From the NCBI GenBank assembly GCA_030038715.1, contig JASHSO010000513.1:1-10593 (forward strand): a stretch of 10,593 nucleotides of DNA, in the 5' to 3' direction. This stretch comes from Streptosporangiaceae bacterium (GTDB lineage Bacteria > Actinomycetota > Actinomycetes > Streptosporangiales > Streptosporangiaceae). A model generated the notes under the pieces. The model saw only the letters and a list, made by a program, of their open reading frames with translations, had not been told where the DNA came from and ran no database searches. The position numbers and the translations under genes were made by a program. Shown piece by piece: positions 1 to 10,593 of the stretch (positions are counted from its first letter, which is position 1; each line of letters begins with the position of its first letter).

Positions 1-58
1 CCCCTGTGCTGAGGATTTAGTGACTGTGGCGAGCGATCAGCGGTGAGAGCATGGTGCA

Positions 59-550
59 GTGCTCAGTTACCGCATAAGGCCAGCCACTGCCGTAGACGTC
101 GAGTTTCTGGTCGACGTGGTCATCGAGGCAACCCGGGCTCAGGGCCGTCTGCCCAACGACTTCGACGAGCCGCATTGGCGCACTGATTTCGGTGAGACGA
201 CGATGGAGCAAGTCCGCGGCGCGGTCCCCGGCAGCACTACTAGCGTGGTCGAGGTCGGTGACGAGCGTGTCGGCCGATTGCGGATCACCCGCACCGCCGA
301 GAGTATCGAGCTGAGCGGCATCCAGCTGCGTCCGGTTTTCCAGCGCCGTGGCATCGGCACCGCGATCATCGAGGACCTCAAGGCCCAGGCAGCTGCAGTC
401 GGCATCCCCCTCGACCTTGGCGTCGAGAAAGACAACCCTGATGCTCGCAAGCTGTACGAACGTCTGGGATTCGTCCGGGTAAGCGAGACGGGGCAGGAAT
501 ACAGGCTCCGATGGAGTCCGCGGCTCGATACCGGCAGCCCGCCGTCATGA
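59..550 (+). CDS. GNAT family N-acetyltransferase
   Basis: Encodes 163 residues that fit a complete GNAT (Gcn5-related) acetyltransferase, which moves acetyl from acetyl-CoA to an amine; the substrate cannot be read from sequence. The acetyl-CoA pyrophosphate loop is visible as QRRGIGTA (residues 95-102, Q/RxxGxG/A form), preceded by strand SGIQLRPVF. Motif B follows as NPDARKLYERLGF (126-138), with the Asn and Tyr typical of the family. The N-terminal RIRPATAVDVEFL is the usual opening strand and helix. The start is GTG 59: an in-frame TGA at 44-46 excludes anything longer, and the ATG at 51 is in another frame and stops quickly. The Shine-Dalgarno is weak (GGTGAG, 42-47). The gene stands alone and converges on the CocE-like hydrolase 56 bp away. 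Family is secure; the biological role is unknown. Confidence 0.93.
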   Translation: MLSYRIRPATAVDVEFLVDVVIEATRAQGRLPNDFDEPHWRTDFGETTMEQVRGAVPGSTTSVVEVGDERVGRLRITRTAESIELSGIQLRPVFQRRGIGTAIIEDLKAQAAAVGIPLDLGVEKDNPDARKLYERLGFVRVSETGQEYRLRWSPRLDTGSPPS

Positions 551-585
551 GGTGCGGCCGCATTGCCACGACCTCTCGGCGCACC
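551..585. terminator. Possible weak hairpin between convergent genes
   Basis: GGTGCG (551-556) and CCG (558-560) can pair with CGG (577-579) and CGCACC (580-585), giving nine pairs with one bulged G and a 16-nt loop, immediately after the GNAT stop codon. There is no T-tract. It lies in the only gap between the two convergent genes, so it could end either transcript, but the structure is poor compared with the hairpins near 4650. Confidence 0.3.
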
Positions 586-606
586 AGGCAGCATCGAAAG
601 TACAGC

Positions 607-2595
607 TCAGTGCCCATCGCGCGGGTAGCGGTGCTCCCAGCTGCGCTCGCGGATCATTACGCCGTCTTGTCGCAGTTCCCTGCGGAACCGGTAGCGCAGC
701 GATCTCTCGTCGCCATCCACGTCCAGCACGGAACAGAGGCTGAGCAGCCGGCCCGGCAAGTGAACTTCGGTGCGGGCCTCGCCGTGCGCCGATGCTCGGG
801 CCGGGTCGTCGTCGCGAACGTCATAGCGCATGTACTCCTCGTCCGTCACCTGTCCCCAGCTGAACTGCGTCCCGCTGGCGCCGCGCCACCAGATCGAGGC
901 CGCACCCGTGTCGTCGCGGAGCAGGTTCCAGCGGGCGGGGACCATCTCGCCCCAGGACTGGACTCCGGGAGGCAGCTCAGCAGGCTCGGGTGGGCCGAAC
1001 GCCGGCTCCTCCCGCATGGCCGGTGGTATGACCGGCAGCGCCAGCCGGGTGTGGGCCGGGCCGAGTAGGACCGTCGCTGTGGCCTGAGCCGGCGTCGGCC
1101 AGGTCATCGGCCACATTGCGTTGGACAGCGCGAGCCGGATGCGGTGGCCACGGGGGAAGACCCACGAGGTGACGTGCAGTTCCAGCCGCAGCGCCGAGGC
1201 TGCGCCGGGAGACTGGACGGTCGGCACCGGCTCGGCGGCGGCGGCGGGCAGCGAGCCTGGGTCGCGCATAGGGTCGGGCTGGCCCGACCTGCCGCCGCCC
1301 GTGACGAGCGTAACCTCGCCGTCGGGCGCTACATCGCACAGCCTGCCGAACCAGTGCAGCGGCTCGGCGTCCGCGTGGCAGGCCATCTCGACCGCCGGAA
1401 AGCCGAGGATCTCAATGTCGTCCTCGAGCTGGGCGGTATCGAAGACCATGCTGTAGGAGTCCGCGTCACGCTGGTCGGTAGTGAGCTCGCCCCACCAGTT
1501 GCCCGCCTGCGCCCCGGCCGACGGCACGTACCGCAGTGACACGGACCCGTCCGGCGGCGGTGCGGCAGACAGGTTCCGTTCCGGGCCGCAATACCACACC
1601 TGGTAGACGGTTCGCTCGGGCGGCAGTGCCGTCTCTGTCCGCCACCGCCCAGGTATCTCGGCCAGGCCGAGGTCCGGCGGGTGCCAGTGCCGCACGTAAA
1701 CGGTGACGGGCGGCTCGGCCATGATTCCGTTGTCCGCGCCTTTGAGCCAGTGATCCCACCACCGCACCGCTTCCGCTCGCCACTCGATCTTCGGCCCCGG
1801 TGCGGCATTATGAGGGAACGAGTGGTTCCACGGGCCGATCAGCGCCTTCACGGGCGCGGGGACCCGGGCGAGCATCCTGGGCACCGAGTCCCGGTAGCCG
1901 TCCAGCCAGCCCCCTATCAGGAACGCAGGAAGCGTGAGCCGGCCGTAGTCGGGCCGCAACGACCCGCGACGCCAGTATGGCCCGTCGCGCTGCTGGCCGA
2001 GCCAGGTCGCCAGCCACGGCGGAGAGTCGAACCGCCGGGTCAGCGTGTGCTCGTCCACACTGAAGTCCGGGGCCGGCGGCAGCGCGTTGATGTGGTCGAT
2101 CATCAGCGCGTACTCGTCGATGTGCAGCAGCCCATCGATGTAGTGCACGTCGTCGTGGAACAGGTCGTCGGACGCGTCCACCGCGATAATCGCCTTCAGC
2201 GCCGGCGGCCGGCGTAGCGCGACCTGGATCGCGTTGAACCCGCCCCACGAGATTCCCCACATCCCAACGGCACCCGAGCACCACGGCTGAACTGCGAGCC
2301 AGGCGATCACGTCCTCGGCGTCGCGCTGCTCCTGCTCGGTGTACTCGCCGCCAGGCCGTTCGCCGTCGCTGGCGCCGGTGCCGCGGATATCCACCCTTGC
2401 GCCCGCGTACCCCCGGCGGGCCAGGTACGAATACAGCTCGTAGTCGCGGGCCGCCATCGCGTCGTCCTTGCGGTATGGCAAGTACTCAAGCAACGCCGGC
2501 ACCGGGCCGGAGACTCCTTCAGGCAAGTACAGGGTGACCGCGAGCTCGATGCCGTCCCGCATCGGAATCCGGGCGGGTAGCAGCTGGACCGTCAC
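607..2595 (-). CDS. CocE/NonD family hydrolase (X-Pro dipeptidyl-peptidase S15-like)
   Basis: A 662-residue alpha/beta hydrolase of the CocE/NonD, S15-like group, whose members cleave esters (cocaine esterase), acyl-amides or X-Pro peptides using a Ser-Asp-His triad. The nucleophile elbow is GMWGISWGGF (111-120), giving Ser116. Asp232 in GGWLDGYRDS and His258 in GPWNHSF complete the triad, with spacing close to CocE. The N-terminal MRDGIELAVTLYLP and GYAGARVDIRGTGAS blocks are typical. Residues from about 320 match the C-terminal jelly-roll (PepX_C-like), for example HVTSWVFPRGHRIRLALSNA. No signal peptide is apparent, so it is likely cytoplasmic. The start is GTG 2595 with a weak ribosome site; Met12 is too close to the first strand to be likelier. 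It follows the transporter gene by 31 bp on the same strand and is probably co-transcribed. The substrate is not predictable. Confidence 0.93.
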   Translation of the reverse strand: MTVQLLPARIPMRDGIELAVTLYLPEGVSGPVPALLEYLPYRKDDAMAARDYELYSYLARRGYAGARVDIRGTGASDGERPGGEYTEQEQRDAEDVIAWLAVQPWCSGAVGMWGISWGGFNAIQVALRRPPALKAIIAVDASDDLFHDDVHYIDGLLHIDEYALMIDHINALPPAPDFSVDEHTLTRRFDSPPWLATWLGQQRDGPYWRRGSLRPDYGRLTLPAFLIGGWLDGYRDSVPRMLARVPAPVKALIGPWNHSFPHNAAPGPKIEWRAEAVRWWDHWLKGADNGIMAEPPVTVYVRHWHPPDLGLAEIPGRWRTETALPPERTVYQVWYCGPERNLSAAPPPDGSVSLRYVPSAGAQAGNWWGELTTDQRDADSYSMVFDTAQLEDDIEILGFPAVEMACHADAEPLHWFGRLCDVAPDGEVTLVTGGGRSGQPDPMRDPGSLPAAAAEPVPTVQSPGAASALRLELHVTSWVFPRGHRIRLALSNAMWPMTWPTPAQATATVLLGPAHTRLALPVIPPAMREEPAFGPPEPAELPPGVQSWGEMVPARWNLLRDDTGAASIWWRGASGTQFSWGQVTDEEYMRYDVRDDDPARASAHGEARTEVHLPGRLLSLCSVLDVDGDERSLRYRFRRELRQDGVMIRERSWEHRYPRDGH

Positions 2596-2626
2596 GGCTC
2601 GCTCGGCGACTGGCGCTCGGCCGGCC

Positions 2627-3550
2627 CTACGACTGCTCGACGGCCGGCGTGCCGCCCGCTACCTCGATAGCGGCTCCAGGGTCATCCTCGCCGTCTATCA
2701 GATGGCTGTGACTCAGCGTCGTGACGCCGACGACCAGCAGCGCGAGGGCAAGCGCCTCACCGGCAAGGCTCACGGTGCCCGCTTGCATGTGCTCACCGAA
2801 CAGGAACATGCCGAGCAGCGTGGCGGCCAGCGGATCGAGAATCGTGAACCCGGGCTGCGATGCGGCCAGCGGGCCGGCGGCCAGAGCATGCGAAGCCAGC
2901 AGCAGGCTCGCCGCCCCTACCCCGACGAGGACGTAGATGCTCCAGTTGGAGAAGATCGCTTCGACGCCGCCACCCAGGTGTGAGCTGAACTCCTTGATCA
3001 CGGCCGCAACGAAGCCCCAGGAGATGCCCGTGGCAGCGCCCAGCACGGCCGTGCGCAGCGGCACCGATGCCGGTGCCAAGCGATACAGCCCGAACGCCAG
3101 CGCAAGGCCGGCCAGAACGACCGCAAGCGTCGCCAGCCCGGCCAGCACCCACAACGAGCCCGGGGCGCGTTGGCGTCCGCCAGACGGCGAGGCGGCCAGC
3201 AGGAACAGCGCCAGCCCGGCTGACATGGCGAGCGCAGCCAGCCAGTCCCGCCTCCGCACCCGCCTGGAACCCAGGATTGCCATATACCCGAAGACGAAAA
3301 GCAGCTCCATTGCGAGGATCGGCTGGACCAAGGCCAGCGGCCCGTAATGCAGGGCCGTCAGCTGGAAGCCGAAGCCCAGGATCATGCTCGCCAGCCCCGC
3401 TAGCCAGACCGGGCGGCGAGCAAGCCGGAACACGAGCATGAGATCGAGCTTGGCCGGCGTTGCGGTGCTCCGGGCGCCGAGGCGCTGGCACACTGACGAC
3501 GTGGCAGTACACAGGCTGGCTGCCACCGCCAGCAGGATGGCCTTATCCAT
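2627..3550 (-). CDS. DMT-superfamily (EamA/NIPA-like) membrane transporter
   Basis: A 307-residue, strongly hydrophobic protein with nine or ten predicted membrane helices (roughly 4-22, 49-67, 72-94, 104-121, 132-154, 165-186, 201-222, 224-250, 258-280). The layout is that of the drug/metabolite transporter superfamily. The early segment GFGFQLTALHYGPLALVQP (59-77) resembles the NIPA-like branch (GFxxxxxAxxxxPxxLVxP), and SQPGFTILDPLAATLLGMFLFGE (231-253) resembles the matching block in the second half. NIPA proteins in eukaryotes move Mg2+; for actinobacterial relatives the cargo is generally unknown and metabolite export is equally possible. ATG 3550 is preceded by GGAGCAAAAGGCG. The short tail from about 283 is acidic and soluble. 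It lies upstream of, and probably in an operon with, the CocE-like hydrolase, so a shared substrate is an inference worth holding loosely. Confidence 0.87.
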   Translation of the reverse strand: MDKAILLAVAASLCTATSSVCQRLGARSTATPAKLDLMLVFRLARRPVWLAGLASMILGFGFQLTALHYGPLALVQPILAMELLFVFGYMAILGSRRVRRRDWLAALAMSAGLALFLLAASPSGGRQRAPGSLWVLAGLATLAVVLAGLALAFGLYRLAPASVPLRTAVLGAATGISWGFVAAVIKEFSSHLGGGVEAIFSNWSIYVLVGVGAASLLLASHALAAGPLAASQPGFTILDPLAATLLGMFLFGEHMQAGTVSLAGEALALALLVVGVTTLSHSHLIDGEDDPGAAIEVAGGTPAVEQS

Positions 3551-3579
3551 CGCCTTTTGCTCCGCTTCCCCTGGAGCAC

Positions 3580-3609
3580 ATCATTCTCGCCACGTTGTGC
3601 AGCAATCAA
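3580..3609 (-). promoter_or_regulatory. Candidate promoter of the transporter-hydrolase pair
   Basis: On the minus strand TTGATT (3609-3604) and AATGAT (3585-3580) are 18 bp apart and match the -35 and -10 consensus at four of six positions each. A start near 3573 would give a leader of about 23 nt before ATG 3550. Such hexamers arise by chance, so this is a suggestion only. Confidence 0.33.
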
Positions 3610-3751
3610 GAGGCCCTGCTTATGCCACCTACGGCTACCCGCACACGCCACGGCCAACCGCGCCGTTCTGTTTAGCACGTGTGCAGGCTGGCCAGGGCTG
3701 AGTCCGGAGAAATCCAGGTCGCGACGAAGACCCGCGCACCACAGCGAGAAC

Positions 3752-3805
3752 CCGGCTATGAGGGGGAAGCCGGCTATCAGGCGGAAGCCGGCTATGAGCG
3801 AAAAA
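3752..3805. repeat. Three tandem 18-bp repeats
   Basis: Three head-to-tail units start at 3752, 3770 and 3788, each opening CCGGCTAT(G/C)AG. Units 1 and 2 differ at two positions (CCGGCTATGAGGGGGAAG and CCGGCTATCAGGCGGAAG); unit 3 decays to an A-rich end. A partial fourth match (TCCGGC) follows. The CCGG boxes at unit borders are self-complementary, so neighbouring units can form short hairpins. The period is a multiple of three, so any frame across it stays open, but no gene is supported here. Confidence 0.82.
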
Positions 3806-3858
3806 TCCGGCAGCATCGGCTAGGTGACGCTCGCGGGTCCGGCCGCCTAGCAGCAGGG

Positions 3859-3890
3859 CGTTGGTCCCGGCGAAGTCGCACCGTTGGTCC
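3859..3890. repeat. Direct repeat CGTTGGTCC x2, 23 bp apart
   Basis: CGTTGGTCC occurs at 3859-3867 and again at 3882-3890, about 110-140 bp before the doxX start. The 23-bp offset is close to two helical turns, so a regulator could bind both on one face of the DNA. No known operator was recognised, and a nine-base repeat in GC-rich DNA may be chance. Confidence 0.35.
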
Positions 3891-3984
3891 TGCGCAGCCG
3901 AGCCGTCCGGCCGTGTTGGCGCATCGGCTTCCGGACGCACCCTGGATACAGAGCCCGCGGGAACCGGGCACAGAGCGAAGGAAG

Positions 3985-3991
3985 AAGGAAG
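3985..3991 (+). promoter_or_regulatory. Shine-Dalgarno of doxX (decides the start)
   Basis: The purine run GAAGGAAGAAGGAAG (3977-3991) includes AAGGA at 3985-3989, nine bases before ATG 3999. In-frame candidate starts upstream, such as GTG-type codons near 3861, have no such site and would add a Ser/Arg-rich leader unlike the family, so ATG 3999 is chosen. Confidence 0.75.
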
Positions 3992-3998
3992 CATTCCG

Positions 3999-4601
3999 AT
4001 GAGCAGCGCACTTGAGTTTCTCGGAGAGCCGTCGAAGCGCAGCAACCTGCGCGTGTGGGACTGGCTGAAGGAATCCAAGATCATGGCGCTTGGCTGGACT
4101 GCGATGCGGGTCTGGCTCGGGGCCATGTGGATTCAGGCGGGCTCGGCCAAGCTGTGGGGCGCGGAGAACCCAGCCTTCCTGCACAACAACGGAGCCGGGG
4201 TCGCGGGCTTTGCCGCCCACGGCGTCCCGGCGTACAGCTGGTGGGGCACCTTCCTGCACAGCTTCGTGGTCCCGAACTCCGGCTGGATCGCCATCCTCGT
4301 GGCGGTCGCTGAGTTCTCCGTCGGCGTCGCGCTGGTGGCCGGCTGCTTTACCCGAGTGGCAGCCCTCGGCAGCCTGGGGCTGCTGTTCACCTACGTGATG
4401 TCCGGCACGGCAAGCGTCTGCGCGTTCTACGCGCTGTTCGCGATCGTGATCCTGGTCATGTGGCGCACCTCAAGCTGGCTGGGCGTCGACGGCCTAGTGG
4501 CCAGTTACCGGCAGCACCACAAGGGCGAGCACGCGGCCATCCACTTCCCCTGGGGGAAGGGCGCGGCCGGGACCGTGCGGCCCGTCCACCGGGCCGCATA
4601 G
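3999..4601 (+). CDS. DoxX-family integral membrane protein
   Basis: A 200-residue membrane protein of the DoxX/DoxD-like family. Founding members are the small subunit of archaeal thiosulfate:quinone oxidoreductase (DoxD) and an actinobacterial DoxX in a membrane complex for redox or thiol stress; the role of most members is not established. Four helices are visible at about 29-47, 96-115, 119-136 and 140-157. Family marks are the RVWLGAMWIQAGSAKLWG block (37-54; wlxaGxxKl), AEFSVGVALVAGCFTRVAAL (104-123; E at 105, GlaLxxGxxTR) and the small-residue MSGTAS turn (134-139). The C-terminus from about 165 is soluble and His/Lys-rich. The start is set by a strong ribosome site at 3985. It is monocistronic, diverges from the transporter, and ends 28 bp before a long hairpin. 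Confidence 0.86.
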   Translation: MSSALEFLGEPSKRSNLRVWDWLKESKIMALGWTAMRVWLGAMWIQAGSAKLWGAENPAFLHNNGAGVAGFAAHGVPAYSWWGTFLHSFVVPNSGWIAILVAVAEFSVGVALVAGCFTRVAALGSLGLLFTYVMSGTASVCAFYALFAIVILVMWRTSSWLGVDGLVASYRQHHKGEHAAIHFPWGKGAAGTVRPVHRAA

Positions 4602-4628
4602 ACGGTCCGCTTCCTCGGCCGGGTCCCA

Positions 4629-4666
4629 GCGTGAGGCGGGCCTGCGACAGCAGGCCCGCCTCACGC
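4629..4666 (+). terminator. Strong GC hairpin terminator after doxX
   Basis: A perfect 17-bp inverted repeat: GCGTGAGGCGGGCCTGC (4629-4645) pairs with 4650-4666 around a GACA loop, 28 bp after the doxX stop. No T-run follows, which is usual for actinobacterial hairpins of this kind. It could act on transcripts from either side. Confidence 0.82.
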
Positions 4667-4711
4667 CTGTCTCGGGACAACTCCGGACCTGCGGCGGCTC
4701 GGGTACAGCCA

Positions 4712-4742
4712 TCGCCGCCGCCCTTCTGCAGGGCGGCGGCGA
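4712..4742 (-). terminator. GC hairpin terminator after dhaK
   Basis: TCGCCGCCGCCCT (4712-4724) and AGGGCGGCGGCGA (4730-4742) form a perfect 13-bp stem with a 5-nt loop (TCTGC). It starts 19 bp past the dhaK stop on the minus strand and has no T-tract. Together with the hairpin at 4629-4666 it insulates the convergent doxX and dha transcripts. Confidence 0.77.
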
Positions 4743-4761
4743 CAGCACTCCCCTCCCCCGG

Positions 4762-5757
4762 TCAGAACGTCCTGATGGCGACCTGCGCCGGAGCGGCCAG
4801 CAGCTCGGTTATCTCGTCGTCCAGGCGGCTCAGAGTGATCGACGTCCCCGCCATGTCCAAGGACGTGCAGTACTCCCCGACGTAGTTACGCCGGACGTTG
4901 ATGCCCCGCTTAGTCAGCTGCTCGTGCGCGTAGCCGTACAGCAAGTACAGCTCGCTGATCGGCGTGCCGCCGAGCCCGTTGATCATCAAGGCGACCTCGT
5001 CGCCCTGGCTGAAGGGCAGGTCGCTGACGACCGCCTCCAGCAGTTCATCGACGATCGCGTTGGCGCTGGCCAGCTTTTCGCGGCGGCGCCCGGGCTCGCC
5101 GTGGATCCCGACCCCCATCTCCATCTCGTCCTCGCCGAGCTCGAACAGCGGTGAGCCCTTGGCGGGCGGAGTGCACGAGGTCAGCGCCATGCCCATCGTC
5201 CTAGTCACCGAGTTGACCTTGTTGCCGATCCTGAGCAGCTCGTCCAGGTCGGCGCCTCGTTCGGAAGCGGCACCGACAGCCTTGATCACGAAGAAGTTGC
5301 CAGCCACGCCGCGGCGGCCGACCGTGTAGGTGGAGTCCTTCACGGCCACGTCGTCATCCACGATCAGCGTTCCTATTGTCACGCCGTCGGCCTCGGCCAT
5401 CTCACGGCCCATATCGAAGGCCATCCGGTCGCCTGTGTAGTTGTTGATGATGTGCAGGACGCCTTTCGCCGAGTTCAGCAGTTTGCTGGTCTCGAGCACG
5501 TAGTCCATGGGCGGGGCGGCGAAAACGTCGCCCGGGCAGGCAGCGTCCAGCATGCCCTTGCCGACGATCATCACGTGCGCGGGCTCGTGGCCCGAGCCCG
5601 ATCCTTGAACGATCGACACCTTGTCGTCGCTGGGCGCGTCGGAACGCATGATCAGGTTGTACTCCGGCACGTACTTGAGCGTGCCGGGGTTGGCCAGCGC
5701 GATGCCCTTGAGCATCTCCGCCACGAACTGCTGAGGGTCGTTAACGAACTTCTTCAT
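4762..5757 (-). CDS. dhaK: Dihydroxyacetone kinase, substrate-binding subunit DhaK
   Basis: A 331-residue, full-length DhaK. The subunit binds dihydroxyacetone as a covalent hemiaminal on a histidine and is phosphorylated with DhaL to give dihydroxyacetone phosphate in the cytoplasm. Visible signatures are GSGSGHEPAH (52-61, with His57), NNYTGDRMAFDMG (105-117, with Asp110, equivalent to E. coli Asp109) and GIHGEPGRRR (217-226, with His219, the covalent histidine, E. coli His230). MINGLGGTP (258-266) also matches. All catalytic residues are present. ATG 5757 overlaps the 3' end of the HAD-DhaL gene by 17 bp and has an excellent GGAGGT eight bases upstream, so it is the last gene of the aldolase/HAD-DhaL/DhaK operon. 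The true sugar may be DHA or a C4 ketose, since erythrulose kinases belong to the same family. Confidence 0.96.
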   Translation of the reverse strand: MKKFVNDPQQFVAEMLKGIALANPGTLKYVPEYNLIMRSDAPSDDKVSIVQGSGSGHEPAHVMIVGKGMLDAACPGDVFAAPPMDYVLETSKLLNSAKGVLHIINNYTGDRMAFDMGREMAEADGVTIGTLIVDDDVAVKDSTYTVGRRGVAGNFFVIKAVGAASERGADLDELLRIGNKVNSVTRTMGMALTSCTPPAKGSPLFELGEDEMEMGVGIHGEPGRRREKLASANAIVDELLEAVVSDLPFSQGDEVALMINGLGGTPISELYLLYGYAHEQLTKRGINVRRNYVGEYCTSLDMAGTSITLSRLDDEITELLAAPAQVAIRTF

Positions 5758-7273
5758 CTGCGGTTACCTCCGTGCTTTTCTGACCGGGCTGGCGCGCCGG
5801 CCACAGATCGGCAAGTGCCTCGAACATCACGGCGACGGCCACGGCACCGGCGTCGAGAGTGCCGATGCTGCGCTCCCCGGTGTAGGCGGCGCGCCCGCGC
5901 ATCGCCTGCATGGAGCGGGTCGCCTCGGCCCGCTCACGCGCAGTGCTGGCGGCGGCCCGCAGCGTGCCAGCAGCATCGGCCCCCTGGCCGATCTGCTCCT
6001 CGATGACGTCGATGGCCGGGACGACCGCGTCCAGCAGGGTCTTATCCCCGACGTCGGACTGCCCGCGCTGCTTGATGCCCGCTACCGAAGCACGCAACAT
6101 CGCCACGACCTTCAGCGGTGTCAACTCCGTTTCCGCGCCGGCGGTGGTCCCGGCCCGCAGGAACGCCGTCCCCCAGATCGGCCCGGAGGTGCCGCCGATC
6201 CGGCTTGTGATCACGACCGCCACCTTCTTCAGGAACGTGCCGATGTCGGTCCGATCGAACCCGTCCCAGTCACGCAGCACGAGTTCGAAGCCGCGAGCCA
6301 TCGAGTAGCCGAAGTCGCCATCGCCGACGACCGCATCTAGCTCACCGAAGTACTTCTCGTTGTCGACCGACACCTGGGCGATCGTGTGCACCACGAACTC
6401 AACGTCGTCAAAGGTTGCTACCGGCATGTGGGCTCCCTGTCGCGGGGGTTTTGCCGCCACGGACGGCTGGGGGTCGTGGTCGGGAGGCAGCACGGCGGCC
6501 AGGTCGTCCAGCGTCACCCAGTCGCCCGGGCTGGCAGCGCTCCGGTTGGCGAGCACAGAGCAGCGGTCGCCCCCAGGATCACCCAGCGAGGTCACGACGA
6601 GTGCGGCGTCGCTGAAGTCCTCGCCCGCCGTGAAGTCGTTCACGGTGATCACGCAGGTCAAGCCGGCAGCCGCGGCTGCGACGAGGCCGTTGTGCGAGTC
6701 CTCGATGACGACGACATGGTTAGCCGGCAGGCCCAGCCAGTTGAGGGCAAGCAGGTAGATGTCCGGGGCCGGCTTCTTGCGTGGCACGACGTCGCCGGCG
6801 AAGACCTTGATCAGTGGCGCAAGCTCGGTACCGACTGCCTGGTCAAGCGTCGCTTGGACCGACGCCAGAGCCGACGTCGAGGCAACTGCCACCTGCCACC
6901 CGCCAGCCATCGCCTCGGCTACGATCCTGGCAACACCGGGCCGCGGCGGAATCGCACCCGCGGCCATCAGGTGGGTGTAGATCTCGGTCTTGCGCCGATG
7001 CCAGTCCGAGACGGCCGCCTCTTGCCCGGCCGAGTCCGCTGGCAAACGTGCCGCAGCCACGAACTCTGGCGTGAGCAGGCTGGCCATTCGCTCCTTGCCG
7101 CCGCCGATCCGCAGCTTCTGCCGGTATTCGGCCGGGCTCCACCGCACTGGCAGCCCGAACTCGGCGAAGGTCTGGTTGAAGGCAACCAGGTGGCCGTCAC
7201 GCTCGGTGTCGGCAAGCACTCCGTCGCAGTCCAGCACCAGCGCGCGACGCTCCACGTCAGGCACCACGGTCAC
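5741..7273 (-). CDS. dhaL: CbbY-like HAD phosphatase fused to dihydroxyacetone kinase subunit DhaL
   Basis: A 510-residue two-enzyme protein. Residues 1-262 form a HAD-superfamily phosphatase of CbbY type: DCDGVLADTE (15-24, Asp15 and Asp17), the CbbY-like cap motif GGGKERM (57-63), VASTSA (130-135, motif II), RKKPAPDIY (165-173, Lys167) and VVIEDSHNG (188-196, motif IV). CbbY removes the C1 phosphate of xylulose-1,5-bisphosphate in photosynthetic bacteria. A Pro/Ala-rich linker (263-282) leads to DhaL (283-500), the nucleotide-binding half of dihydroxyacetone kinase: Asp313, Asp318 and Asp320 in LDAVVGDGDFG are the Mg ligands, followed by GGTSGPIWG (360-368), GDKTLLDA (409-416) and RGRAAYTGERSIGTLDAGA (459-477). 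DGDFG replaces the more usual DGDHG. The start is GTG 7273, overlapping the aldolase stop as GTGA. Both domains look complete. No DhaM is nearby. Confidence 0.94.
   Translation of the reverse strand: MTVVPDVERRALVLDCDGVLADTERDGHLVAFNQTFAEFGLPVRWSPAEYRQKLRIGGGKERMASLLTPEFVAAARLPADSAGQEAAVSDWHRRKTEIYTHLMAAGAIPPRPGVARIVAEAMAGGWQVAVASTSALASVQATLDQAVGTELAPLIKVFAGDVVPRKKPAPDIYLLALNWLGLPANHVVVIEDSHNGLVAAAAAGLTCVITVNDFTAGEDFSDAALVVTSLGDPGGDRCSVLANRSAASPGDWVTLDDLAAVLPPDHDPQPSVAAKPPRQGAHMPVATFDDVEFVVHTIAQVSVDNEKYFGELDAVVGDGDFGYSMARGFELVLRDWDGFDRTDIGTFLKKVAVVITSRIGGTSGPIWGTAFLRAGTTAGAETELTPLKVVAMLRASVAGIKQRGQSDVGDKTLLDAVVPAIDVIEEQIGQGADAAGTLRAAASTARERAEATRSMQAMRGRAAYTGERSIGTLDAGAVAVAVMFEALADLWPARQPGQKSTEVTADEEVR
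5766..5771 (-). promoter_or_regulatory. Shine-Dalgarno of dhaK inside the upstream gene
   Basis: GGAGGT on the minus strand (5771-5766) stands eight bases before ATG 5757 and lies within the last codons of the HAD-DhaL gene. It fixes the dhaK start and the 17-bp overlap, and suggests translational coupling that would keep DhaL and DhaK levels matched. Confidence 0.88.
6425..6438 (-). promoter_or_regulatory. Possible internal ribosome site and start for free DhaL
   Basis: On the minus strand AGGGAG (6438-6433) is five bases before an in-frame ATG (6427-6425), which is Met283 of the fusion, exactly where DhaL homology begins (MPVATFDDVEF). Initiation here would give a 228-residue stand-alone DhaL, close to the normal length of about 210 residues. 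Whether it is used is unknown. Confidence 0.5.
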
Positions 7274-8130
7274 CAGGCCTTGCCGACGCTGCCAAAACGG
7301 CGCATGTGCGTAACGGCCATGTCCACGACCGCCGCGCGGACCGCCGTGAACAGCGACGGCGGATCCCAGCTGCCGCGCGTCTCGGCGTCGCGCAGGAAGG
7401 TCAGGTTCGACTTCATGTAACTGACCTTGAGCGCGGTCGAGATGTTTACCTTCGCGCAGCCGCGCGCGATCAGGTCGCTGAACTGCGCGTCAGTCATGCC
7501 GGTGCCGCCGTGTAGAGCGATCGGGATGGGCTGCGCCGCCACGATGTCCGACACACGCTCGGCATCGAGCTTGGGCTCGGACCGGTAGAGACCGTGCGCA
7601 TTGCCGATTGCCGGCGCGAAGACATCGATGCCGGTGCTGCGGATGAAGTCAAGCGCCACTGGCAGGGACTGCCTGCTTGCCTCGTCGTCCGAGCCAATGT
7701 CGTCCTCGACCCCGGTGATGGCCTCGATCTCGCCTTCCACGCTCGCCCCGTAGGACTTGGCCTCGGCGACAACCTCCACGGTCTGCCGCTGGTTCTCTGC
7801 CACCGGCAGCGAGGAGCCGTCGAACAGCACCGAGTTCCAGCCCTTGCGCAGGCAGCTGGTGATGACCGAACGATCGGGGCAGTGGTCGAGGTGCAGGCTG
7901 ACCGGAACCTCGATGCCCGCGGTCAGCTCGCGCCACATGGCGTACAGCAGGTCCAAGCCGATCGAACGGACGGTCTTGACCGAAGTCTGGACGATCAGTG
8001 GCGATCGCTGCTCGACCGCGCCAGCGAGCACAGCCTCGAGGGTCAGGTCGTTGACGACGTTGATGGCAGCCACGCCGTAACGCTCGGTGAAGGCTCGATC
8101 GACGATGTCCTTCAGCGGAACGACAGGCAC
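7270..8130 (-). CDS. Class II ketose-bisphosphate aldolase (FBA/GatY/KbaY family)
   Basis: A 286-residue zinc-dependent class II aldolase, which reversibly joins dihydroxyacetone phosphate to an aldehyde. The active-site set lies at nearly the same positions as in tagatose-bisphosphate aldolases: HLDHCPD gives catalytic Asp82 and Zn ligand His83, VEGEIEAI gives Glu132 and Glu134, GNAHGLY gives His179, LHGGTGM gives His207, and KVNISTALK gives Asn229 and the phosphate-binding Ser/Thr. GWNSVLFDGSS (98-108) is also typical. GTG 8130 is chosen over a 25-codon longer frame because GGAGGG lies six bases upstream and homology starts with PLKDIVDRAF. It is the first gene of the operon and overlaps the HAD-DhaL start by GTGA. 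The preferred ketose bisphosphate (fructose, tagatose or pentulose type) cannot be read from the sequence. Confidence 0.93.
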   Translation of the reverse strand: MPVVPLKDIVDRAFTERYGVAAINVVNDLTLEAVLAGAVEQRSPLIVQTSVKTVRSIGLDLLYAMWRELTAGIEVPVSLHLDHCPDRSVITSCLRKGWNSVLFDGSSLPVAENQRQTVEVVAEAKSYGASVEGEIEAITGVEDDIGSDDEASRQSLPVALDFIRSTGIDVFAPAIGNAHGLYRSEPKLDAERVSDIVAAQPIPIALHGGTGMTDAQFSDLIARGCAKVNISTALKVSYMKSNLTFLRDAETRGSWDPPSLFTAVRAAVVDMAVTHMRRFGSVGKAW

Positions 8131-8136
8131 ACGCTT

Positions 8137-8142
8137 CCCTCC
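8137..8142 (-). promoter_or_regulatory. Shine-Dalgarno of the aldolase gene
   Basis: GGAGGG on the minus strand (8142-8137), six bases before GTG 8130. It decides the start: the longer in-frame candidate at 8205 has no comparable site and would add an Arg-rich leader foreign to class II aldolases. Confidence 0.82.
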
Positions 8143-8147
8143 GGAAA

Positions 8148-8167
8148 GTTCGTAACGCGAACGTAAC
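8148..8167. promoter_or_regulatory. Candidate operator before the aldolase operon
   Basis: GTTCG-TAACG-CGAAC (8148-8162) is a dyad with 5-bp arms, and GTAAC recurs at 8152-8156 and 8163-8167, 11 bp apart, about one helical turn. It lies 18-37 bp upstream of the start codon, where a repressor could block transcription or the leader. The binding protein is not known. Confidence 0.4.
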
Positions 8168-8211
8168 CTGCGCCGCGGTCCGGGTGGATCGGTGGAAACC
8201 CCCAACTGACC

Positions 8212-8225
8212 GGGAGTACTTTCCC
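8212..8225. promoter_or_regulatory. GGG-N8-CCC dyad, possible LuxR/NarL-type operator
   Basis: GGGAGTACTTTCCC (8212-8225) has GGG and CCC separated by eight bases around AGTACT, the same outer spacing as the DevR/DosR box (GGGACTWWAGTCCC). It lies about 80 bp upstream of the aldolase start, next to a gene for a LuxR-type regulator. The inner bases match the DevR consensus only partly. Confidence 0.4.
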
Positions 8226-8265
8226 CTACTCAGCGGCTGCGGACGAGCCGACGACACGCGTGACC

Positions 8266-8284
8266 GGTACGTCCCACACGTACC
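8266..8284. repeat. 19-bp perfect inverted repeat GGTACGT-N5-ACGTACC
   Basis: Seven-base perfect arms (8266-8272 and 8278-8284) flank CCCAC, between the regulator stop and the aldolase promoter region; an 8-bp palindrome CACGCGTG (8255-8262) lies just beside it. It could be a dimer operator or a short hairpin at the end of the regulator transcript. The stem is only moderately GC-rich, which favours an operator. Confidence 0.45.
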
Positions 8285-8322
8285 TGCCGTGGGTTGGCCG
8301 ACAGCACTTCTCGAGGCCTAGG

Positions 8323-8336
8323 GACTCACGGGAGTC
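8323..8336 (-). terminator. Very weak hairpin after the regulator gene
   Basis: GACTC (8323-8327) and GAGTC (8332-8336) can form a 5-bp stem with a 4-nt loop, ten bases past the regulator stop. It is too short to trust as a terminator, so read-through into the DHA operon remains possible. Confidence 0.2.
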
Positions 8337-8345
8337 GCCGAGGTC

Positions 8346-10241
8346 TCACCGGTGCCGCGCTCGCCCGGCTAGCGCGGCTAGCTCGGTGCGGTTGCGGACC
8401 CCGGTCTTGCGGAGCACCGCCGCAGCGTGCTTCTCCACGGTCTTCACCGATAGCACCAACCGCTGGGCGATCGCGCGGTCCGGCACGCCGAGCTCCATCA
8501 GACCGCGGACCTCCCGTTCCCGCTCGGTCAGGGCAGGCTGCGAATCGTCCGCGCGCATCCCGCGGTGCAGCTGGCTAAGCACCGCCCCCGACAAAATCGC
8601 CTGCCCCCGTCCCGCAGCTACCACGGCCTGGGCCAGCTCTGGCCCGCCGGCGCCAATGTCAACGCAGCCGCGCGCACCCGCCCGCATGGCGTCCGCCACC
8701 TGCTCGTCGTCACCGCTCTCGCACAGGCCGACCACAGCAAGCCCTGGCAGGTTCCGTAGCAGGACGCCGACGGCATCGTCTCCAGCGGCGGCCGGGCGCT
8801 CGGAGTCGGCTGGTTCGTGCTCGTCTGCCGACGCAGGGAGGCTCAGATCGACGAGAGCCACATCTGGTTGCTGTGCTCGGCACGCCGCCAGCGCCTGGTC
8901 CGCGGCGCCGACCTCGGCGATGACCTCGGTACCTGGCTCTGTCCAGGTGAGCAGCCGGGCGAGGCCTGCGCGTAGCACGGGGCGCCGCGCGGCGACAAGG
9001 ACCCGCAGGCGCGGGCCACCCCGTTCCCCGCTTGTCAAATAGGGAAAACGAGCACGGATGCGGGTACCCCAGCCCGGCAGCGAGTCGATGTCGACCGTGG
9101 CGCCAAGCTCTCGCGCACGCTCGGACATGGCACGCAGGCCGAACTGGTCGCCCCGCCCGCTGTGGTGCAGGTCGAACCCCTGGCCGTCGTCTTGTACCAG
9201 CAGCGACACTGAGGCTGGCTCGTACAGCAGGCCGATCCGCACGGTGCGCGCCTGCGCGTGCCGGACGATGTTGGTCAGCGCCTCCCGCGCTGCCCACAGG
9301 ACCTCACGAGACAGGCGGCCGTCGATCGCCACAGGCGAGCCAGCGGTTACCAGCCGCACCTCGAGGCCGCCGATGCTCTCCGCCCACGCGGCCTCCGACC
9401 CGAGCGCGGCCTCCAGCGCCAGTCCGTCGGGCGGCGCCGACAGTCCAAGCAGCGACTGCCTGGCCTCGACTAGCGCGTCCCTGGTCGCAGCGCTCGCCTG
9501 GTCCAGATGGTCGGCCAGCGCGCCGTGCGGGTAGTTCGTGGCGGCGCCGACGGTATGGCCGACCTGGCCGAGGTCACGCCGCGCGCTGTCGAGGTGCACC
9601 TGAACACTGGCCAGCCGCTGGGCGAGCGTGTTGTGCAGTTCGCCGAGCAGCCGGTCACGCTCGGCCGCCGCCGCCTCCGTCCTGGCCCGCTCCTCGGCCG
9701 CCTCGTGCATGCGCGCGTTCGCCAGCGCGATCGCCGCGTGCTTGGCGAACAGCTCGAGCAGTTCGGCGTCGTCGGGACCGAACGTCCGGTGCTCGTCCCG
9801 GCTGAATACAATGCAGGCGCCGATGATGCGGCCGCGCCATTCCAGCGGCACGCCGATCACGCCGCGCAGCGAGGCGCGCTCCTCCGGCGCTACGTGCCCG
9901 CCAGGCACGTCGTCGTAGCGGGCGAACCAGACTGGCGCCCGGCGCGCCACGACCGCGCCCGTCATGCCCTCGGTGAGCGGGAACACCTGCCCGGACTGAC
10001 AGGCCACCCCGATGTCGGCTTCCTTCCGGTATGTCGCGGATGCCTCGTCGACGCTGCAGATCGAGCCCGCATGACAGCCGAGCAGCTCCGTGCAGCGGAG
10101 CAGGATCCGCTCGAGCAAGGGCCGGAGCGAGAACTCGCCAGCCAGGTCCTCGGCAACAGCGATCAGCCCAGCGGCACGTGCTGCCGCGCTATCCTGCGAC
10201 TGCGGTCCCTGCGGACCGCGCGGGTGTGAGCCGACGCCCAT
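8346..10241 (-). CDS. Fused sensor kinase-regulator: GAF, HisKA_3/HATPase, degenerate receiver, LuxR HTH
   Basis: A 631-residue protein (from ATG 10241) joining a NarL-type two-component pair in one chain. An N-terminal GAF domain covers about 22-179, then a charged helix (180-197). The phosphotransfer helix ERDRLLGELHNTLAQRL holds His203, followed by Asn204 where the family usually has Asp, and Gln208. The ATPase has the N-box REALTNIVRHA (Asn324), DDGQGFD and GLRAMSERA, and ends with GWGTRIRARFP. A receiver-like domain (412-550) keeps Asp465 in PDVALVDLSLP, but the acidic pair is Ala418-Arg419, the Thr position is Cys and the Lys position is Ile/Asp. It also has an acidic insert (about 471-492). 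A LuxR HTH (569-629, LTEREREVRGLMELG and VKTVEKHAAAVL) ends the chain. No membrane segment is seen, so it is likely a cytosolic sensor. It lies 215 bp upstream of the aldolase operon on the same strand. GTG 10259 is an alternative start without a ribosome site. Confidence 0.92.
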   Translation of the reverse strand: MGVGSHPRGPQGPQSQDSAAARAAGLIAVAEDLAGEFSLRPLLERILLRCTELLGCHAGSICSVDEASATYRKEADIGVACQSGQVFPLTEGMTGAVVARRAPVWFARYDDVPGGHVAPEERASLRGVIGVPLEWRGRIIGACIVFSRDEHRTFGPDDAELLELFAKHAAIALANARMHEAAEERARTEAAAAERDRLLGELHNTLAQRLASVQVHLDSARRDLGQVGHTVGAATNYPHGALADHLDQASAATRDALVEARQSLLGLSAPPDGLALEAALGSEAAWAESIGGLEVRLVTAGSPVAIDGRLSREVLWAAREALTNIVRHAQARTVRIGLLYEPASVSLLVQDDGQGFDLHHSGRGDQFGLRAMSERARELGATVDIDSLPGWGTRIRARFPYLTSGERGGPRLRVLVAARRPVLRAGLARLLTWTEPGTEVIAEVGAADQALAACRAQQPDVALVDLSLPASADEHEPADSERPAAAGDDAVGVLLRNLPGLAVVGLCESGDDEQVADAMRAGARGCVDIGAGGPELAQAVVAAGRGQAILSGAVLSQLHRGMRADDSQPALTEREREVRGLMELGVPDRAIAQRLVLSVKTVEKHAAAVLRKTGVRNRTELAALAGRARHR

Positions 10242-10244
10242 CTG

Positions 10245-10250
10245 CCCTCC
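10245..10250 (-). promoter_or_regulatory. Shine-Dalgarno favouring ATG 10241 for the regulator
   Basis: GGAGGG on the minus strand (10250-10245) ends three bases before ATG 10241. The gap is short, but the longer GTG 10259 start has nothing purine-rich ahead of it, so ATG 10241 is preferred. The difference is only six residues outside any domain. Confidence 0.55.
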
Positions 10251-10302
10251 GGTGTGCACGACTGCGTGCGTGCTGGCAAGGGCCTGCTAACGGATCGGTC
10301 TG

Positions 10303-10332
10303 AGCATCACTCTGCCCCCGTGCGTCCGTCAA
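10303..10332 (-). promoter_or_regulatory. Weak candidate promoter of the regulator gene
   Basis: TTGACG on the minus strand (10332-10327) is a good -35 hexamer; 18 bp on, GATGCT (10308-10303) is a poor -10. The 154-bp gap 10260-10414 otherwise shows no structure that I recognise. Confidence 0.22.
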
Positions 10333-10414
10333 GCCAGCCGACGTCGCGGTGGGCTGGTGCGAACGAAGCGGCTACGGGCGAGCGTGCCGACTGCGGGGCT
10401 CGCGACCGCGCTGC

Positions 10415-10593
10415 TCAGCAGGCCGCCCGGCACCTGGCCAGCAGCCGCCTTCGCGGGTTGGCCCCGCCGCTGACGTCGTGCTGATCGACCAGGTCGAACC
10501 CTGGCGGCAGCAGCGACGCGGGCTCACCCTGGCGCACGCACCATTCCGCCGGAATGTGCGGACGTTCGCGCCTGGCTGCCTCGGTCAGAGCCT
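10415..10593 (-). CDS. Partial C-terminal reading frame of an unrecognised protein
   Basis: A minus-strand frame enters from the right edge and stops at TGA 10417-10415, leaving the last 58 residues. They read ALTEAARRERPHIPAEWC, then VRQGEPASLLPPGFDLVD, then QHDVSGGANP and an Arg-rich end. Third positions are mostly G or C, and the mix of residues looks protein-like, but I recognise no family. The opposite strand is also open here (a frame through VVLIDQVEPW), so the coding strand is not certain. If real, the gene lies 173 bp upstream of the regulator and points the same way. Confidence 0.4.
   Translation of the reverse strand, partial: ALTEAARRERPHIPAEWCVRQGEPASLLPPGFDLVDQHDVSGGANPRRRLLARCRAAC

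Follow-up and report, generated by a model that had tools for sequence, protein, structure and literature searches.

What would a single protein do that joins a sugar-phosphate phosphatase to a subunit of a sugar kinase? The question is raised by contig JASHSO010000513.1 of Streptosporangiaceae bacterium (assembly GCA_030038715.1), of which positions 1 to 10,593 were analyzed (this whole stretch of 10,593 nucleotides is here referred to as the window). An earlier note, made from the letters alone, had described there an uninterrupted 510-codon frame that carries a CbbY-like phosphatase of the HAD family and DhaL, a subunit of dihydroxyacetone (DHA) kinase. We found that this gene belongs to a tightly packed operon on one strand, in the order class II aldolase, HAD-DhaL and DhaK. 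The fusion seems to be an optional state of this conserved operon, and the surprise therefore lies in the operon rather than in the fusion. Our preferred reading, to which we give a probability of about 0.5, is that the operon runs ketose synthesis from kinase to aldolase to phosphatase, and that the fused gene is a stop-loss variant with two products. The features concerned are the following:

5741..7273, minus strand: HAD-DhaL fusion gene, 510 codons; its GTG start overlaps the aldolase stop as GTGA
6581..7246, minus strand: CbbY-type HAD phosphatase domain, residues 10-231
6428..6499, minus strand: hypervariable linker, residues 259-282, with low model confidence at 266-281
6433..6438, minus strand: retained Shine-Dalgarno-like AGGGAG of the ancestral dhaL, read as Gln-Gly-Ala 279-281
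6425..6427, minus strand: internal ATG (Met283), a probable second translation start for free DhaL
5810..6391, minus strand: DhaL (Dak2) domain, residues 295-488
7270..8130, minus strand: class II (FBA-like) aldolase without the DPR arginine of fructose-bisphosphate (FBP) aldolases; alternative upstream start at 8205
4762..5757, minus strand: dhaK, DHA-binding kinase subunit, downstream of the fusion gene and overlapping it by 17 bases

The fused frame runs from 7273 to 5741 on the minus strand and is free of stops across residues 1-510, while frame 1 of the plus strand over the same interval is interrupted by a stop; the coordinates given by the earlier note are thus right and its strand is wrong. 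Pfam assigned Hydrolase (residues 10-204, 86.8 bits), HAD_2 (13-208, 61.1 bits) and Dak2 (316-488, 159.7 bits) to the protein, each above its curated cut-off, and the DhaL half scored 173.5 bits against the NCBIfam DhaL equivalog TIGR02365 (cut-off 138.3). Every motif that had been named was found, namely D15, D17, K167, E191-D192 and GGGKERM (57-63) in the HAD half, and D313/D318/D320, GGTSGP (360-365) and GDKTLLDA (409-416) in the DhaL half; all these residues, M63 excepted, are invariant across 52 aligned fusions. An AlphaFold model built with 52 fused sequences contains two well-formed domains (mean pLDDT 84), with pLDDT below 50 at linker residues 266-281, and its pTM of 0.56 means that no fixed orientation of the two domains is predicted. 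When the model was searched with Foldseek, CbbY of Arabidopsis and Rhodobacter took ranks 1-4, and E. coli DhaL took ranks 5 and 10. The frame is real, neither chance nor assembly error, since the same fused frame is present in two further metagenome-assembled genomes (loci L034, where it is a single open frame of 489 codons, and L035) and in 120 listed protein clusters, which came from a search for fused proteins. As for a stop between residues 262 and 283, which was to speak against the fusion, the window has none and a close relative (L033) has one. The earlier note was therefore sound on a CbbY-type HAD fused in frame to DhaL, and missed the strand, the operon with the aldolase and the lability of the fusion.

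The HAD half is a true CbbY relative by sequence as well as by fold. In the Protein Data Bank it scored 203 bits with AtCbbYA and 150 bits with RsCbbY, against 44 bits for the next non-CbbY sequence, with identity at 105/228 (46%) of the positions aligned to AtCbbYA (4uav) and at 89/195 (46%) of those aligned to RsCbbY (4uar). The three proteins have 63 residues in common, 42 of which are invariant in 38 HAD proteins of the operon, including D15, D17, H28, N33, W45, Y50, GGKER (58-62), H92, K95, R111, K166-K167, E191 and D192; others vary, such as E97 (17/38) and L102 (18/38). Plant and Rhodobacter CbbY are reported to convert xylulose 1,5-bisphosphate (XuBP) to xylulose 5-phosphate (Xu5P) with high selectivity, and the plant enzyme to free phosphate also from ribulose 1,5-bisphosphate and none from Xu5P (PMC10212915). 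The window's domain may likewise hydrolyse the C1 phosphate of XuBP. Unlike CbbY, it is joined to DhaL and encoded together with an aldolase and a DHA kinase. A comparable layout is MtlD of Acinetobacter (mannitol-1-phosphate dehydrogenase/phosphatase, 7ocn), in which a HAD sugar phosphatase is likewise joined to an enzyme of its own pathway; there, however, the partner is a dehydrogenase, and its HAD matches that of the window at 38 bits versus 203 for CbbY. Within titles and abstract openings of the open-licence papers searched we found no description of a HAD-DhaL protein, as the earlier note had supposed, nor of an operon of DHA kinase, aldolase and phosphatase.

The earlier note had also named CbbY as the enzyme that clears XuBP. 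As a role in the Calvin cycle, this does not fit most carriers of the operon. Of 39 carrier genomes (one counted twice, G022 = G060), 33 gave no match to RuBisCO, the window's own 73% complete genome among them, although many are incomplete drafts from which absence is unproven. Repair of the Calvin cycle was thus rejected as the common role, and the domain departs from the usual company of CbbY, a RuBisCO or cbb operon.

The kinase subunits resemble those of E. coli, whose DhaL and DhaK chains were the best matches of known structure (3pnl, 2btd, 1uoe). DhaL retains the aspartate triad and GGTSGP, while DhaK keeps the E. coli-type GSGHEP and GIHGEPG motifs and scored 429.5 bits as a DhaK equivalog (cut-off 406.25). 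The operon differs from the DhaKLM kinase of the phosphotransferase-system type in having no dhaM beside dhaK and dhaL. In fact, dhaM is absent from the window, and DhaM-family genes occur in 31 of 33 carrier genomes; in both the window's genome and G022 they lie on contigs other than that of the operon. The phosphate of DhaKL may therefore come from ATP or from DhaM acting in trans. A second DhaL adjoins an FGGY kinase-like gene (L001; G000:C524:2025-2546), and DhaM lies at the edge of contig C571 in that genome, so the DhaKL of the operon is probably a second set.

The aldolase fits the class II FBP aldolase family profile and has the HLDH and GGTG motifs. Whole-length matches joined it about equally to FBP aldolases (7ncc, 232 bits; 3q94, 215 bits) and to 8q58 (226 bits) and 8q57 (223 bits), which we take to be the class II sulfofructose-1-phosphate aldolase SqiA. 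Most family matches are FBP or tagatose-bisphosphate aldolases, and no NCBIfam cut-off was reached. The aldolases of the cluster differ from FBP aldolases in one position: the arginine of the DPR motif (7ncc, 3q94, 7nc7), which presumably binds the C6 phosphate, is replaced by Pro, Ser or Val in 40/40. We found no description of the role of this arginine in the open-licence papers searched. The cluster keeps TSVK in all 38 proteins with letters at that site and HLDHCP(D/E)R in 39/39. Judged from these motifs, their Lys and Arg could lie near the acceptor end, so that an acidic acceptor may still fit.

We then come to the conservation of the operon. When one genome per species was scanned, a relative of the fusion query turned up at 47 loci, and in 36 of them aldolase, HAD, DhaL and DhaK follow in this order on one strand. 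L034 has three of the four genes at a contig edge, and the remaining ten loci have HAD alone (eight) or aldolase and HAD (L051 and L071). Among the 37 carriers Actinomycetota predominate (Jiangella, Catellatospora, Kribbella, Modestobacter, Leifsonia and Cryobacterium, among others), alongside two Chloroflexota, two Dormibacterota and a single genome of Acetobacteraceae. The four-gene operon is thus conserved not only in Actinomycetota but also in a few further phyla. Searches of genomes with the fused protein (E up to 1e-60; every tally includes the window's own genome) recovered relatives from 6 of the family's 341 genomes, the same six being returned for the order, from 14 of 394 in the class and from 7 of 396 in the phylum.

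The fusion itself is far less constant. A protein search with the whole query gave HAD and Dak2 together in all 120 matches listed of 1174 (the window's own included), yet the two are joined in only 2 of the 37 loci holding both genes (L034 and L035). Within the family, three of six relatives are fused, namely those of the window, G400 (L080 = L034) and G121 (L081 = L035), while G022 (= L033) and G264 (= L040) are split. A search with the HAD half listed 120 relatives of 71-81% identity, and 113 of them end at most 45 residues past the HAD domain, i.e. they are separate proteins. In a concatenated HAD and DhaL tree of 66 taxa, the 34 fused rows fall into one actinobacterial clade (UFBoot 97; many inner nodes are weak, with UFBoot 19 to 58). 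Split lineages are nested inside it: L033, with TAA before GGAG, within an 11-member clade (UFBoot 100), and L040/L082, with two genes in different frames, beside P0029 (UFBoot 92). The larger tree of HAD domains (233 rows, 120 fused and 113 separate) needs 37 changes of state by parsimony, at least 14 of them forced by well-supported branches, compared with 78 when the labels were shuffled; these counts cannot separate gain from loss. The tree was made by FastTree from 257 columns, and errors of sequencing or gene calling may account for some separate rows, which makes 14 the figure to prefer. A single, stably kept origin was therefore rejected, even though the 66-taxon tree gives one clade. 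The two frames are often joined in one actinobacterial clade and their state flips repeatedly, so that the fusion is a labile state of two adjacent genes and not a settled new architecture.

The junction suggests how this state arises. Among the 120 listed fused proteins the linker, measured between the HAD anchor and the start of DhaL, has 28 distinct lengths from 6 to 50 residues, while the first residue of DhaL is Met in 119 and Val in one. Before this start, Gly stands at -3 in 115/120, position -2 has a residue whose codons begin with G in 115/120, and -4 is mostly Gln (76). The -4 residue is one base from a stop codon in 117/120, a set that covers half of the amino acids and is weak evidence alone. 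The DNA from linker to start reads CAGGGAGcccacATG in the window, CAAGGAGcccccATG in L035 and GAGGGAtcgcgcATG in L034, against TAAGGAGcactgATG in the split L033. The linker Gly is encoded by GGA in 3/3 fused loci, a codon used for 6.3% (window), 10.3% (L034) and 1.9% (L035) of Gly in called genes. The linker is thus hypervariable while the ribosome-binding site and ATG of dhaL are kept, which argues for the loss of a stop codon and for a usable internal start. On this pattern we infer that the fusion is a stop-codon-loss variant, and that two products are probably made from the gene, HAD-DhaL and, through internal initiation, free DhaL.

How could a phosphatase and a kinase, whose reactions oppose each other, serve one pathway? 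We agree with the earlier note that the pairing is sensible if they act on different steps. In our reading, DhaK and DhaL would phosphorylate DHA to dihydroxyacetone phosphate (DHAP), the aldolase would form a ketose 1-phosphate from DHAP and an aldehyde, with the phosphate of DHAP ending up on C1, and the CbbY-like domain would remove this phosphate to leave the ketose. Kinase and phosphatase would then stand on successive steps, and the use of ATP and the release of phosphate would pull the aldol addition towards synthesis. FBP aldolases have a stereochemistry that leads to the D-threo series, of which XuBP is a member. The aldehyde may be glycolaldehyde, leading to D-xylulose, or glycolaldehyde phosphate, leading to Xu5P. 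D-xylulose is hinted at by one dormibacterotal locus (L053), where an HD-domain gene and then XylA (598 bits, cut-off 447) and XylB (517 bits, cut-off 380) come after the operon on its strand; genes of L052 resemble this set in length and order. FBP aldolases are reported to handle D-xylulose 1-phosphate, whose cleavage is called thermodynamically unfavourable (PMC4918971). An engineered cascade likewise runs from DHA kinase through a DHAP aldolase to a phosphatase, taking formaldehyde by way of DHA to a branched ketose with formolase, RhaD and fructose-1-phosphatase; it differs in being man-made from unrelated enzymes, with RhaD or FucA as aldolase, and E. coli FruA and TagA failed with DHA as acceptor (PMC6202814). 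The fuller version of our reading, a natural ATP-driven synthesis of a D-threo ketose from DHA and glycolaldehyde or its phosphate, with CbbY recruited from carbon fixation and a fusion-fission toggle that keeps an internal-start DhaL, is put forward tentatively, with the odds against it.

Several observations weigh against the preferred reading. The near-equal scores of the FBP aldolases and of 8q58/8q57 mean that the substrate of the aldolase is not given by its sequence, and its conserved Lys52 and Arg87 might bind a distal phosphate. The XylA/XylB neighbourhood is annotated at L053 only; XylB scores above its cut-off in just 23 of 33 carriers, with no such hit in the window's genome. RuBisCO was matched in 6 of the 39 carrier genomes; two of these matches are strong (458 and 467 bits), and the remaining ones (62 to 218 bits) may be RuBisCO-like proteins. 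At L051 (2573-6813), aldolase and HAD occur without DhaKL behind an amino-acid permease-like protein and a protein like type 2 glycerol-3-phosphate oxidase (190 bits, below the cut-off of 460), which is perhaps another source of DHAP. At L071 (326-1432), in a Propionibacteriaceae genome, a RuBisCO-like protein lies opposite the aldolase-HAD pair, its best model being 2,3-diketo-5-methylthiopentyl-1-phosphate enolase (263 bits, below cut-off). As regards the fusion, DNA of the fused clade comes from three distinct loci only, and by the energy of the duplex with the anti-Shine-Dalgarno sequence the internal start ranks just 4th of 27, 1st of 23 and 3rd of 24 in-frame ATG/GTG codons, which is supportive and not decisive.

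Other roles of the same genes have to be compared with this reading. The HAD enzyme could be one of metabolite repair that clears XuBP-like ketose bisphosphates formed by the aldolase or kinase, the operon serving mainly for the use of DHA; its closest solved relatives are indeed CbbY, described as a repair enzyme (PMC10212915). We regard this as rather unlikely, for the known source of XuBP, RuBisCO, is unmatched in most carriers, and a repair enzyme need not stay between the aldolase and kinase genes as it does in 36 of the 47 loci. A hexose route, in which the aldolase joins DHAP to glyceraldehyde 3-phosphate and the HAD enzyme is a fructose (or sedoheptulose) bisphosphatase, would agree with the prevalence of FBP and tagatose-bisphosphate aldolases among the family matches, none of which reached an NCBIfam cut-off. 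The gene set also fits a dihydroxyacetone/formaldehyde cycle. The route is nevertheless unlikely in view of the DPR arginine, present in three FBP aldolase chains and missing from all 40 cluster aldolases, and of the high specificity for XuBP reported for CbbY (PMC10212915).

The operon might also be catabolic. DhaK-family kinases that act on other short ketoses exist, and DhaKL could phosphorylate an erythrulose-like ketose, imported or internal, whose product the aldolase splits while the HAD enzyme recycles phosphorylated by-products. We hold this improbable: DhaK scores above the cut-off of its equivalog, and clustering of the loci gave no gene cluster that recurs beside the operon across genera, its regulator apart. 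Finally, the frequent flips of state make the covalent link look dispensable, as would be expected if the fusion were inconsequential; that it is so, or is an artefact of assembly or gene calling, we consider very unlikely, and against an artefact speak three different loci and 120 listed protein clusters with the fused frame, together with linkers of 28 lengths that are all in frame.

The idea that a transporter or sugar gene regularly accompanies the operon was rejected, as none recurred among the gene clusters. The annotated neighbours vary by genus: at L060 (Modestobacter) they are amino-acid-type ABC transporter genes, at L036 (Jiangella) RNase PH and Ham1, and at L040 a melibiase. A link to DHA synthase was rejected too, the cluster-12 proteins near L066, L074 and L075, transketolase-like by length, being heavy-metal P-type ATPases. 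Directly upstream of the operon in the window lies its regulator:

8346..10259, minus strand: one-chain GAF-histidine kinase-receiver-LuxR regulator, its receiver below the Pfam cut-off

In the cluster of 15 such proteins, the window's included, the receiver lacks its acidic pair in some members, and even the kinase His can be missing: the window has AR instead of DD, the regulator of L048 has no kinase His, and those of L056 and five Modestobacter loci are GAF-LuxR only. It is as if the GAF domain alone did the sensing. Further along the window, a CocE/NonD family hydrolase is encoded at 607-2595 on the minus strand, and an 81% identical copy exists in one of eight same-genus genomes (G002, 77% complete). 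The 10.6 kb contig of G002 that holds it has no other match to the window (blastn) and encodes none of the four operon proteins (tblastn), and the eight genomes gave no match to the fused protein at E up to 1e-60. The operon may have been recently gained or lost, or may lie elsewhere in G002.

Taken as a whole, the operon looks like an undescribed route from DHA to a ketose, in which a phosphatase of the CbbY type works with an aldolase and a DHA kinase, and mostly does so apart from carbon fixation. If this is true, CbbY-type phosphatases would gain a role beyond RuBisCO repair, an undescribed bacterial conversion of reactive small carbonyls to sugar would come to light, and a ready-made natural operon for enzymatic ketose synthesis would be at hand. 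The fusion in turn shows how gene fusions begin, with the stop codon by a ribosome-binding site lost while the downstream start is kept, which makes the step cheap and reversible.

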